DNA of 64,000 bases from NCBI GenBank assembly GCA_902621165.1, contig CACNKX010000002.1, positions 124,001 to 188,000 of the forward strand, in the 5' to 3' direction. Both the position numbers and the translations under genes were made by a program. The notes beneath the pieces were generated by a model. The model saw only the letters and a program-made list of their open reading frames with translations. It was not told where the DNA came from and searched no databases. Shown in pieces: positions 44,464 through 49,524 of the stretch. Source of the DNA: an uncultured Alphaproteobacteria bacterium (GTDB taxonomy: Bacteria > Pseudomonadota > Alphaproteobacteria > HIMB59 > GCA-002718135). The first letter of the stretch is position 1. Each line of letters begins with the position of its first letter.

Positions 44464-44643
44464 TTAGATCGTTTTTCTTCTAAGAGTCCAACCGTATCTT
44501 TCGCTGTAGTATGCTTCGATACCATCAGCAAGATTAAGGTCATAATTTGAGTCTATAGATCCTTCAAGAACCTTCTTCTCAATAGAACTCTGTTCTAGGC
44601 TATCTTTTTGATTATTAATATTTTCTGTTAATTTACTGTTCAT
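44464..44643 (-). CDS. Unlisted 59-aa small ORF MNSKLTENINNQKDSLEQSSIEKKVLEGSIDSNYDLNLADGIEAYYSERYGWTLRRKTI
   Basis: Translated by hand from minus strand; fills most of the only large intergenic gap; divergent from the ScfR-type gene with a matching upstream motif. Confidence 0.55.
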   Translation of the reverse strand: MNSKLTENINNQKDSLEQSSIEKKVLEGSIDSNYDLNLADGIEAYYSERYGWTLRRKTI

Positions 44644-44644
44644 A

Positions 44645-44659
44645 TTTACAGATTTTACA
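44645..44659 (-). promoter_or_regulatory. Tandem TGTAAA motif (9-bp spacing) abutting start of 59-aa ORF
   Basis: Plus strand TTTACAGATTTTACA; minus strand TGTAAAATCTGTAAA then TATG. Confidence 0.45.
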
Positions 44660-44734
44660 AATACATAATAAAATAAAAAAAAACTAGAGTTTTTCTTAGT
44701 TTTAATGTAAAGAAAATTACTTTGAATTTATTAT

Positions 44735-44752
44735 TTTTGTAAATTTTGTAAA
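44735..44752 (+). promoter_or_regulatory. Exact tandem repeat TTTTGTAAA x2 abutting start of ScfR-type regulator
   Basis: TTTTGTAAATTTTGTAAA followed by TG; the second copy contributes the A of ATG at 44752. Confidence 0.5.
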
Positions 44753-46191
44753 TGAATATTGAATCTGACATAAATTTTGGCCCAAGGTTAAAAAAACAAA
44801 GGATAAGCAAAGGTTTTTCACAAGCTGAATTATCAAAAACTATTGGTATATCTCCTAGTTATTTAAATTTAATTGAAAGTGGAAAAAGAAAAATACCACT
44901 TTCCTTACTAATTAAAGCAGCTGATAAATTAGATTTATCAATTAAAGACTTCTCAACAGAATCTAGCAAACGACTACTTTCAGACGTAATGGATGTTTTA
45001 AGCAATGAGATTTTTGATGATTTAAAGATAACCAATCACGACACAAGTGACTTTATTGGTTCTAATCCTAACATAGCTAAAGCATTACTGACAATAAATG
45101 ATTCTTTTAAAAGTTTTAAAGAAGATATGCAAAATCGACTTGAAACGATGGATGTCAATGCAAATCAAATTGAAAAACCAACAAGACTACCTGTAGAAAT
45201 CGTTTCAGATATTCTTCAAGAAAATAAAAATTACTTTAATGATTTAGAAGTAAGTTCTGAAAATCTAAGAAAACAAATAGGTCTTGAAACTGGACCTAAC
45301 ATTGGATCTGGATCTAAATTATCACTTTATCTTAAAGAAAAACATGGAATTGAAGTTAAAATAGTAACCATAAACGAAGATGAAAAAATAGTTAAAAGAT
45401 TTGATGAAAATTCAAAGATTTTTTATCTTTCTGAAATGTTAACTTACACATCAAGAAACTTTCATTTAGCATCACAAGTCGCTTATTTAGAGGCTAATGA
45501 TGTTATCAATAAAGTTATTAAAGATAATAATGTCGAATCAGAAGAAGTAGAACCTTTGTTTAAACTATCTTTACTAAATTATTATGCTGCTGCTTTTATG
45601 ATGCCTTATAACGATTTTTTAAAGAGTGCTAAATTACATAAATATGATGTAGAAATTTTGATGCATCATTATGCTTGTAGTTTTGAACAAGTTACACATA
45701 GATTAACAAATCTTCAAAGACCTGGAAACGAAGGAGTGCCATTTCATTTTTTAAAAACAGATATTGCTGGAAATGTCTCAAAGCGATTTTCTTTATCTGG
45801 TATTCATATACCAAGACATGGAGGTTCTTGTCCTAGATGGAATGTTTATACTGCTTTTTTAAATCCTGGAAAAATTCATCCTCAAATATCTAAAATGCCA
45901 GATGGACGAGTATATTTTTGTATTGCAAGAGCTTTTGAGAAAGGAATTGAAAAACATGGAATGCCTAAAAGCTTTGTTTCGATTGGTTTAGGTTGTGATA
46001 TGAAATACGCAAAAGATTTAATTTATTCTGAAGGAATTGATCTAAATAATAAAAAATTACAAATGCCAATTGGAGTTTCTTGTAGGATATGCCCTAGAGT
46101 GGAATGTCAGCAAAGAGCTTTTCCTCCAATTGATAAAGAACTTAAATTAGATATAAAATATCGAGGGACGTCGCCCTACGTTACAATTTAG
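44752..46191 (+). CDS. XRE-family transcriptional regulator, short-chain fatty acyl-CoA regulator type (ScfR/RamB-like; IrrE-like and DUF2083 domains)
   Basis: HTH LKKQRISKGFSQAELSKTIGISPSYLNLIESGKRKI; C-terminal HIPRHGGSCPRWNVYTAF...GVSCRICPRVECQQRAFPP. Confidence 0.92.
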   Translation: MNIESDINFGPRLKKQRISKGFSQAELSKTIGISPSYLNLIESGKRKIPLSLLIKAADKLDLSIKDFSTESSKRLLSDVMDVLSNEIFDDLKITNHDTSDFIGSNPNIAKALLTINDSFKSFKEDMQNRLETMDVNANQIEKPTRLPVEIVSDILQENKNYFNDLEVSSENLRKQIGLETGPNIGSGSKLSLYLKEKHGIEVKIVTINEDEKIVKRFDENSKIFYLSEMLTYTSRNFHLASQVAYLEANDVINKVIKDNNVESEEVEPLFKLSLLNYYAAAFMMPYNDFLKSAKLHKYDVEILMHHYACSFEQVTHRLTNLQRPGNEGVPFHFLKTDIAGNVSKRFSLSGIHIPRHGGSCPRWNVYTAFLNPGKIHPQISKMPDGRVYFCIARAFEKGIEKHGMPKSFVSIGLGCDMKYAKDLIYSEGIDLNNKKLQMPIGVSCRICPRVECQQRAFPPIDKELKLDIKYRGTSPYVTI

Positions 46192-47199
46192 TTAAATTTT
46201 GACTAACATTTTACCTAAATTTTTTCCATTAAGTAAATCGATAAATGCTTTAGGAGCATTTTCTATATTTTCATAAATTGTTTCTTTAAACTTTATTTTT
46301 CCTTCAGACAGCCAATTTCGCATATCAGTTTCAAAAGGCTCATTATCATTTTCATGATCAAAAATTAAAAAACCTTTTATAGTTAATCTTTTTACTAATA
46401 CGTGAGCCATATTTTTTAGTCCAGCAGGTGCAGAAGTTGAATTCATTTGAGATATTCTTCCACAAATAATAATTCTTCCAAAATTTTTCATTCGAAAAAT
46501 TGCAGACTCTAAAAAATCACCTCCTACATTATCAAAGTATAAGTCAAATCCTTCAGGACAAATTTCTTTTAAGTGAACAACAAGGTTATCAATTTTTTTA
46601 TAATTAAATGCTACATCAACATTTAATTCATTTTTTAACCAATCAACTTTTTCATCTGATCCTGTACTAGCATATACTTTGCATCCTAAATTTTTTGCAA
46701 TTTGACAAACTGTTGAACCAACACTTCCACCTGCTGAAGATACAAGAATACTTTGTCCTTTTTGTATATTCCCATGATTAAAAAGACCAATATATGCAGT
46801 TTGCCCTGTCATTCCTAAAGGCCCAAGATAAGTTTGCAATGGAAGATTGTAATTTTTTATTTTTTTTAAATCACCGCCTTTGCAAACGAAGTTATCTCTC
46901 ATTCCAAAATTACTGAAAACAACGTCTCCTTCTTTAAATTGTGAATCTTTTGATTTTTGGACTGACCCAATTGCATAACCTTCCATTTCCTCGCCTATTA
47001 AAAAGGGTGGTTTATAATTTTTACGTTCTGTCATCCTTGCTCTCATATACGGATCAACAGATATCCATGAATTAAGAACATGAATATTATTTGTTTCATC
47101 TAATTCTAAAGTTTTAGATTTAATTTCAAAATCTTCTTCTTTAGGTAAACCAGTTGGTATATAATTTTTTAAAGCTACATATTTTGAAATTATTGTCAT
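46192..47199 (-). CDS. NADP-dependent MDR oxidoreductase (CurA/leukotriene B4 dehydrogenase-like)
   Basis: ISVDPYMRARM, LGPLGMTGQTAYIGLFNHGNIQKGQSILVSSAGGSVGSTVCQIAK, GFDLYFDNVGGDFLES. Confidence 0.92.
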   Translation of the reverse strand: MTIISKYVALKNYIPTGLPKEEDFEIKSKTLELDETNNIHVLNSWISVDPYMRARMTERKNYKPPFLIGEEMEGYAIGSVQKSKDSQFKEGDVVFSNFGMRDNFVCKGGDLKKIKNYNLPLQTYLGPLGMTGQTAYIGLFNHGNIQKGQSILVSSAGGSVGSTVCQIAKNLGCKVYASTGSDEKVDWLKNELNVDVAFNYKKIDNLVVHLKEICPEGFDLYFDNVGGDFLESAIFRMKNFGRIIICGRISQMNSTSAPAGLKNMAHVLVKRLTIKGFLIFDHENDNEPFETDMRNWLSEGKIKFKETIYENIENAPKAFIDLLNGKNLGKMLVKI

Positions 47200-47201
47200 A
47201 A

Positions 47202-48122
47202 TTATAATTTATATTTTTTCTTTAATTCTAGCAAATCTATTAAGAAATTATCTCTTATATTACTTAAATCTTTTATAGAATGATTGTTTGATTGTTTTTT
47301 TGTTCCTTTAATGATGTCTTCTTTAAGTTTTTTTGTTAGTTTTGGAGATTTTAGTTTAGTCCATGGGAGTTTTAATGCTGGTCCAAATTGATCTAACATG
47401 TGTTTCATACCCATTTCTCCTCCTGCTAAGTGAAATGTCAAAAAAGTTCCCATTAGAGCCCACCTCATACCAGGACCATAAGTGATTGCTTCATCTAAAT
47501 CTTTTGTTGAAGCATATCCATCATTTACAATATGTAACCCCTCTCTCCACAAAGCTTCTTGCAATCTATCAGATAAAAAGCCTGGTAATTCTTTTTCTAC
47601 CAATAATGTTTTCATTTTAATTTTTTGATAAAATTTTTTTGCTTTATTAAGATATAAATTTGTAGTTTTTTTACCTTTTACAATCTCAACCAAGGGGAGA
47701 ATATACACAGGGTTAAAGGGATGAGCTATGATTAATCTTTTTGGATTAATACATTTTGATTGTAAATCTGATGGAAGTAAACCAGATGAACTTGAAGCAA
47801 TTATTGAATTGGATGGTGAATATTTACTTATATTTTTTATAACATCTTTTTTTAAAGATAGTCGTTCAGGTACATTTTCCTGAATTAAATCTGCATTTTT
47901 TACTGCTTCCTCAATATTGTCTACGATCTCCAAATTTTTGAAATTGATTTTGGTATTATATAATTTTTTTATAATTAAGTTTGTTCTTGCTATTTCTTCT
48001 TTTAGAAAATGTAATTGATGAGAATTTTTATCAAATGCTTTGACTTTTTTACCATTGGCGAGAAATCTGAGTATCCAGCCGGTACCAATCACACCAGTTC
48101 CAATGACAGCAATATTTTTCAA
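47202..48122 (-). CDS. cdhA: L-carnitine dehydrogenase-like (3-hydroxyacyl-CoA dehydrogenase family)
   Basis: NIAVIGTGVIGTGWILRFLANG, QENVPERLSLKKDV, AHPFNPVYILPLVEIV, EALWREGLHIVNDGYAS, YGPGMRWALMGTFLTFHLAGGEMGMKHMLDQFGP. Confidence 0.85.
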   Translation of the reverse strand: MKNIAVIGTGVIGTGWILRFLANGKKVKAFDKNSHQLHFLKEEIARTNLIIKKLYNTKINFKNLEIVDNIEEAVKNADLIQENVPERLSLKKDVIKNISKYSPSNSIIASSSSGLLPSDLQSKCINPKRLIIAHPFNPVYILPLVEIVKGKKTTNLYLNKAKKFYQKIKMKTLLVEKELPGFLSDRLQEALWREGLHIVNDGYASTKDLDEAITYGPGMRWALMGTFLTFHLAGGEMGMKHMLDQFGPALKLPWTKLKSPKLTKKLKEDIIKGTKKQSNNHSIKDLSNIRDNFLIDLLELKKKYKL

Positions 48123-48123
48123 A

Positions 48124-49014
48124 TTAAAAATGTTTTTTTAGTTTTAATTTCTCTCTTGTCTGTTGCGGGGATAAAATAGATGCTCCCATATCTTCAACAA
48201 TACATCTTGCTTTTTCAACCAACTGTGCATTTGATGCAAAAACTCCTTTTTTTAAATAAAGATTATCCTCCAGTCCTACACGAACATTTCCTCCTAAAAT
48301 AACTGCCTGTGCAGCCATAGGCATTTGCGATCTTCCTATTCCAAATCCAGACCAAATACCTTCAGAAGGTACCATTTCAGCCATAGCTTTCATTGCGCTT
48401 GTTGTTGCAGGTGATCCCCAAGGTATGCCAAGGCATATTTGATAAAAAGGAGGGCCATCAATTAAACCTTCTTTATAAAGTTGGTTAGCAAACCATAAAT
48501 GACCCATTTCAAAAGCTTCCATTTCTGGTTTCACTCCAAGCTCCTGCATTTTTTTTGCTGCAGTTCTTAGTTGTATCGGTGTATGAATAAAAGTCATGTT
48601 TGAGTCACCAAAATTTAGTGAGCCGCAGTCTAAAGTACAAATTTCAGGCAATAACTCTTCAACATGTTCTAATCTGCTTAATGCATCGATCATATCAGTA
48701 TTTGCTCCCACTGGATTTAAAGGATCTTTACCTGTTCCCACTTCAAAATCACCACCCATACCTGTAGTAAAATTTAAAACTACATCAGTTTCAGAGGAGC
48801 GAATTCTATCTGCTACTTCTTTATAATAACTTAAATTCCTAGAAGGTTTGCCATCAGGTTCTCTTACATGTACATGAGCTATTGCTGCACCTGCTTTGGC
48901 AGCTTCAATTGAAGCATCAGCAATTTGTTTTGGCGTTATAGGTAATTCAGGATGTTTGCCTGCTGTATCACCAGATCCTGTTACAGCGCAGGAAATTATT
49001 ACTTCATTATTCAT
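48124..49014 (-). CDS. cdhC: BKACE-family 3-keto acid cleavage enzyme, dehydrocarnitine cleavage-like
   Basis: [86 protein letters not shown]. Confidence 0.85.
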
Positions 49015-49056
49015 TATTTTAAACTACAATATTTTTTGAATTAATAAAGAAAAACA

Positions 49057-49524
49057 ATGAAGATATATTTAAATTCAGGAAGAGTAAAAAAAGAATGGAC
49101 CGATTACAATGGTCATATGAATTTGGCATTTTATATTCATCTTTTTGATGCTGGATGGGAAGTTCTTTTACAAAAATTTAATATGGGTGAAACTTCTGCA
49201 AAAAAAGAGAAGAAAACTACTTTTGCCGTTGAGTCACACACAACTTATGACAAAGAAGTGAAAGAGGGTGATGAAGTAGATATTAATTTATTATTTCTTG
49301 ATAGGGATAAAAAAAGATTAATTTATAAATTAGAAATGACACATAAACTTGAAGGTTATAGAGCAGCAACAACAGAGGTTTGTTCTTTGTATGTTGATTT
49401 AAATGTTAGAAAAGTTTCTGAATTAGAATTAGAAAAGCAAAAAGATATAGATAAATTTATTCAAGAAAATAAAAATAATTTTGATCCAGGTAACCTTACA
49501 CTAATCAATAAGCTAAAAAAATAA
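49057..49524 (+). CDS. cdhB: Thioesterase, betainyl-CoA thioesterase-like
   Basis: hot-dog thioesterase DYNGHMNLAFYIHLFDAGWEVLL; position next to cdhA/cdhC-like genes. Confidence 0.75.
   Translation: MKIYLNSGRVKKEWTDYNGHMNLAFYIHLFDAGWEVLLQKFNMGETSAKKEKKTTFAVESHTTYDKEVKEGDEVDINLLFLDRDKKRLIYKLEMTHKLEGYRAATTEVCSLYVDLNVRKVSELELEKQKDIDKFIQENKNNFDPGNLTLINKLKK

Follow-up and report, generated by a model that had tools for sequence, protein, structure and literature searches.

PccR of Rhodobacter sphaeroides belongs to the ScfR family and has paired boxes; unlike the regulator described here, it controls propionyl-CoA carboxylase. The footprinted site of Mycobacterium tuberculosis PrpR (MtPrpR), TTTGCAAA-N-TTTGCgAA, consists of two 8-bp boxes with one base between them, a 9-bp period (PMC3420887, PMC6765138). 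In Paracoccus denitrificans, RamB (RamB_Pd) is an activator of malate synthase / isocitrate lyase, its boxes lying 32 bp apart, start to start, and 82 bp upstream of the target gene (PMC10370305); the boxes mutated in that study (oligos 46-49), TGTAAGGTTTGTCA and AGTCAGTATTGTCA, each contain TGTAA / TGTCA-like units at a 9-bp period by our own reading of the published oligos. Negative autoregulation by RamB was reported in M. tuberculosis (PMC3420887) and in Corynebacterium glutamicum (PMC4448153), the latter protein governing a global acetate regulon through 13-bp AA/GAACTTTGCAAA sites.

We compared these systems with a locus in a window of 64,000 nucleotides (the whole stretch of DNA analyzed here) from a bacterium whose order we infer to be HIMB59 / AEGEAN-169. 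The locus resembles that of M. tuberculosis PrpR in that the two regulators are homologous and share their [4Fe-4S] cysteines, in the 9-bp period, in its divergent neighbor, and in the placement of a site near the starts, but its box is TTTGTAAA and not TTTGCAAA, and the neighbor in M. tuberculosis is the methylcitrate operon (prpDC), which PrpR activates. With P. denitrificans RamB it shares an alphaproteobacterial ScfR and units 9 bp apart. RamB of C. glutamicum and M. tuberculosis is of the same family, and its negative autoregulation is that proposed here; in contrast to the acetate regulon of C. glutamicum, no second target was found in the window genome.

The regulator (479 aa, 44752..46191, plus strand) has the architecture of ScfR / IsaR (PF09856), with an XRE-type HTH (HTH_3, 50.6 bits, cut-off 23), a Peptidase_M78-like domain (M78, 52.9 bits, cut-off 22), and a ScfRs C-terminal domain (208.7 bits, cut-off 24). 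It matches the M. tuberculosis PrpR structures at 2e-81, and its C444-X2-C447-X4-C452 and C360 align with C447/C450/C455 and C363 of PrpR, so that all four [4Fe-4S] cysteines are kept; they are also invariant in nine aligned relatives. PrpR pocket residues R338, K347, and K410 correspond in the alignment to K335, K344, and K406, which are basic and either kept or conservatively changed. By sequence, the protein is a member of the ScfR/PrpR/RamB family. Its score of 411.8 bits is below the 700-bit cut-off of the NCBIfam equivalog RamB, and we therefore call it RamB-like and not RamB.

Facing the regulator, across a divergent intergenic control region of 108 bp (44644..44751), is a small ORF of 59 aa on the minus strand (44464..44643), and two near-identical TTTGYAAA-type boxes, such as form the operator in ScfR / IsaR systems, are present in the sequence between them. 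The initial annotation had described two TGTAAA units at 9-bp spacing beside both divergent starts, and this is what we found: both pairs are of the TTTGTAAA-N-TTTGTAAA type, one at each start. Predicted operator O1 (44645..44661, minus strand, TTTGTAAAATCTGTAAA) has its two units directed toward the small ORF, and a single base separates it from the ATG at 44643; predicted operator O3 (44736..44752, plus strand, TTTGTAAATTTTGTAAA) overlaps the regulator ATG by one base, its last A being the A of the start codon. Between them is a weaker predicted operator, O2 (44697..44711, plus strand, TAGTTTTAATGTAAA), with one good unit in the window and 41 bp from O3. Neither O2, nor the fixed inter-site spacing, nor the one-base overlap of O3 with the ATG had been mentioned in the initial annotation. 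The window has two copies of the motif TGTAAANNNTGTAAA, whereas shuffled sequence yields 0.05; an equal frequency in shuffled sequence, which would have spoken against the earlier proposal, was thus not seen. A pattern search of the 1.42-Mb genome, which is 83% complete, returned two exact matches to TTTGTAAAWTYTGTAAA, both at the regulator/small-ORF locus; the three one-mismatch sites genome-wide are all within ORFs.

We aligned 24 diverse loci with regulator identity down to 64%, the named relatives being single cells of uncultured marine Alphaproteobacteria, some of them labeled Pelagibacterales or MarineAlpha5. Columns conserved at 90% or more numbered 27/33 in O1 and O3, but 5/59 in the remainder of the O1-O3 interval (Fisher p = 1e-12), and the O1 and O3 pairs are nearly the sole conserved bases of the intergenic region; an absence of the pair from orthologous promoters, named beforehand as grounds for rejecting the earlier proposal, was thus not observed. 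O3 is the best conserved site, with 13/16 columns invariant. O2 retains TGTAAA in all loci but two, which have TGTAAT, and in many relatives it is a full 9-bp pair (GGTAAATCTTGTAAA, AGTAAATATTGTAAT). Within any site, the units all have the same orientation, head to tail. Since TTTGTAAA is not palindromic, unlike TTTGCAAA, which cannot reveal direction, the direct-repeat nature of the units can be seen in this lineage.

The distance between the 17-mer starts of O1 and O3 is 91 bp in 22/24 loci and 92 bp in the other two, and inter-site spacing is identical in 85/88 fetched loci, the remaining three being longer by one base. Against this constancy, the distance from O1 to the small-ORF ATG varies from 1 to 15 bp (11-15 bp in other genera). 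Of the earlier observation that the repeats abut both start codons, the regulator (plus-strand) side is conserved and the small-ORF (minus-strand) side is not. The oppA-oppB intergenic region, the only comparably long control, ranges from 215 to 236 bp among n = 4 close relatives.

To which protein the sites belong is suggested by other ScfR genes. In the 150 bp upstream of 28 ScfR genes from alphaproteobacterial families other than that of the window (up to two mismatches allowed), a TTTGYAAA pair spaced by exactly 9 bp was found before 7/28 genes against 0.08 in shuffles, and at 8-10 bp before 12 against 0.24 expected; the pairs lie at varied distances from the ATG. In sister family f2, where the regulator is missing, paired sites are no more frequent than in a reversed-pattern control. 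The expectation of further paired sites near acyl-CoA genes was not borne out in intergenic DNA by the genome-wide scan. Neither the window genome, nor the searched relatives, nor 12 SAR11-type genomes have a further intergenic paired site, and a wider regulon was discarded, the extra exact sites in relatives and SAR11-type genomes being inside ORFs, with no recurring intergenic positions. The genome was also searched for a double pair like that of RamB_Pd, with a gap of 5-23 bp, and none was found.

Our preferred reading, with a probability of roughly 0.82, is that the divergent ScfR-type regulator binds at O1, O2, and O3 and would thereby control both its own gene and the small ORF in a RamB-like autoregulatory divergon that has outlived its enzyme. 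An autoregulatory ScfR-type operator also controlling the small ORF had been proposed from the window alone, and computation lends it support through the ScfR/PrpR homology, the conserved pairs, their recurrence before other ScfR genes, and the 9-bp period of MtPrpR. By homology, the regulator would form tetramers in which every chain has an HTH, with an acyl-CoA pocket and a lid locked by the [4Fe-4S] cluster, and would read TGTAAA units head to tail, every 9 bp. Since O3 overlaps the regulator start codon, it probably also covers the promoter or the transcription start of that gene; the regulator bound there would limit its own synthesis, and bound to O1 it would control the small-ORF promoter. 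Because the 91-bp O1-O3 and 41-bp O2-O3 spacings are fixed, one protein assembly (one tetramer or two dimers) may contact two or more of the sites, through bridging or a short loop. The regulator would be expected, from PrpR and RamB_Pd, to be switched by an acyl-CoA ligand. Against this reading, the sequence between the sites has no conserved promoter element, a consensus promoter scan performing no better than shuffles; the regulator scores below the NCBIfam RamB cut-off; and the Pelagibacter-like genus has an inverted regulator-side pair with an O1-O3 spacing of 73-74 bp, again fixed, so that no single geometry is obligatory.

The sign of regulation is the point at which a competing account comes closest. 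The sites would still be operators, but the regulator would mainly activate the small ORF, and autoregulation would follow incidentally from the intergenic region being shared. The studied alphaproteobacterial RamB and mycobacterial PrpR both activate their neighbors (PMC10370305, PMC6765138), which also speaks against autorepression, and O2 is upstream of both genes, at an activator's distance from the regulator start. We nevertheless put this account at somewhat below even odds, given that the best conserved site, O3, lies over the regulator start codon and that O1 is at, or at most 15 bp from, the small-ORF start in every aligned relative.

That the TGTAAA units are instead promoter or translation-start elements (e.g., -10 TAAATT / TAAAAT, leaderless mRNAs) and not protein operators appears improbable. 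With a transcription start at the A of the regulator ATG, TAAATT would occupy exactly positions -12 to -7, and TAAAAT is similarly placed for the small ORF. However, exact tandem 9-bp pairs are confined in the genome to this locus, do not exceed the control in relatives without the regulator, occur upstream of ScfR genes in other families with a varying distance to the ATG, and keep their operator spacing in other genera where O1 is 11-15 bp from the small-ORF start. A combination, with the operator overlapping a promoter, is likely. Crossing promoters with O1 and O3 as -35 boxes were rejected, the fit being no better than in shuffles and the -10 region not being conserved. By our test, a Shine-Dalgarno sequence precedes just 7/50 window genes, and the lack of one is therefore uninformative on leaderless mRNAs here.

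Slightly less probable still is binding by another regulator, with the ScfR gene merely a target: the motif accompanies ScfR genes across families, agrees with the known sites of PrpR and RamB, and shows no enrichment in the absence of the regulator. Chance repeats in AT-rich DNA, conserved merely through close kinship, would suit the low G+C and a motif made mostly of T and A, but are refuted by the 0.05 expected per window and by the persistence of the pairs across genera in a region that has otherwise diverged.

The proposed divergon lacks the classical RamB target. No isocitrate lyase was found in the window's genus or in the other family members searched, in agreement with AEGEAN-169 being mostly without aceA (PMC10308909), so that in these genomes the regulator does not adjoin or control this enzyme as RamB does. 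In phylogenetic grouping, it does fall with lyase-linked ScfRs: the ScfRs of the window and of the SAR11 type group with those of L272 and L276, which are adjacent to the lyase (100/98), and the ScfR of f99, another order and likely SAR11, is sister to the regulator of the window clade (100/99), composition bias being noted for both groupings.

A small ORF lies opposite the f99 ScfR as well, and TGTAAA pairs again adjoin the divergent genes. In three genera of this other order, O1-O3 spacing is 90 bp, 1 bp shorter than in the window (46% regulator identity for the one compared), and O2-O3 spacing in G258 is 41 bp, equal to that in the window. This SAR11-type divergon (L313, L316, L317), for which we found no publication, thus resembles the window in its sister regulator, its paired sites, its near-equal spacing, and, in most cases, a small ORF of 53-61 aa; it differs in having isocitrate lyase after the small ORF in all three loci checked. 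ScfR is divergent from isocitrate lyase in the two nearest outgroup loci too. The simplest account is an ancestral arrangement with a RamB-like regulator opposite isocitrate lyase, from which the enzyme was probably lost, rather than gained elsewhere, while the regulator, the operators, and a small protein were retained.

The SAR11-type small protein, between ScfR and isocitrate lyase (L313 3911-4111; L316 6552-6716), has a near-invariant tail, GIYxRDDHCDWGSSGM, and one member scanned had no Pfam family. In two SAR11-type genera, a further small protein (REKxNIESNCVSxxDxCxxETN...) directly precedes isocitrate lyase (L316 6665-6889; L317 6318-6554). At outgroup locus L340 (7273-7520), ScfR and isocitrate lyase are separated by yet another small protein (~82 aa), which is unrelated and matches no Pfam family.

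The 59-aa ORF of the window is a real gene, judged by a pairwise dN of 0.02-0.10 against a dS of 0.5-2.0 (dN/dS well below 0.1) and by its tail. Its N-terminus is variable; the tail, YYSERYGWTLR in the window and YYS(E/N)RYGW(T/S)LR across genera, is almost invariant and encoded by differing codons. Among 162 genomes of the order, the small ORF is present in 84 and the regulator in 89, the small ORF only in regulator-carrying genera and adjoining the regulator. It has no Pfam or NCBIfam match; a weak bleomycin-resistance-like match in only 2/12 members (E 0.0015) is not believed. The sole confident part of an AlphaFold model is a C-terminal hairpin. Searches beyond the order returned just weak, scattered matches, and homology to the SAR11-type small ORF was rejected, similarity of sequence or tail not being detectable. 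In part of the genus, an aldo/keto reductase gene, absent in the window, lies 43 bp past the small ORF on the same strand (L224 8181-9206; L225 8413-9438; L228 7560-8585) and is a possible extra target in those relatives. In genus g5 (L231 6364-9048), ~4.7 kb separates a GMC oxidoreductase from the small ORF, this stretch including, by eye, a phosphoenolpyruvate-carboxylase-like ORF; the small ORF-regulator block is intact.

Convergent with or beside the regulator is a carnitine-type catabolic cluster (46192-49524: curcumin-reductase-like oxidoreductase, L-carnitine dehydrogenase-like protein, BKACE, thioesterase), within which the regulator locus is situated. Because this cluster is largely conserved in the order, betainyl-CoA or acetoacetyl-CoA can be named, speculatively, as candidate ligands. 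We also raise, tentatively and with less confidence than the activation account above, a one-locus circuit in which, after the loss of isocitrate lyase, an acyl-CoA-sensing ScfR kept only itself and the small protein as outputs, the small protein being the working effector (e.g., an acyl-CoA-tuned co-regulator or an enzyme-binding peptide). The SAR11-type small protein ahead of isocitrate lyase would be an analogue.

The operator type is known already. New features are its T variant, in which the units run strictly head to tail, a geometry of three sites that is fixed in two orders, the lack of the classical target, and the association of conserved small proteins with the ScfR locus. The hosts are open-ocean bacteria with small genomes. 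For the ScfR family, the locus offers a testable operator code, in which the T in TTTGTAAA breaks the TTTGCAAA palindrome, and a constant arrangement of several sites in which bridging can be tested. For these bacteria, it presents a regulator apparently still in place after its classical target has gone, and small proteins, conserved in two orders, that are linked to ScfR control.
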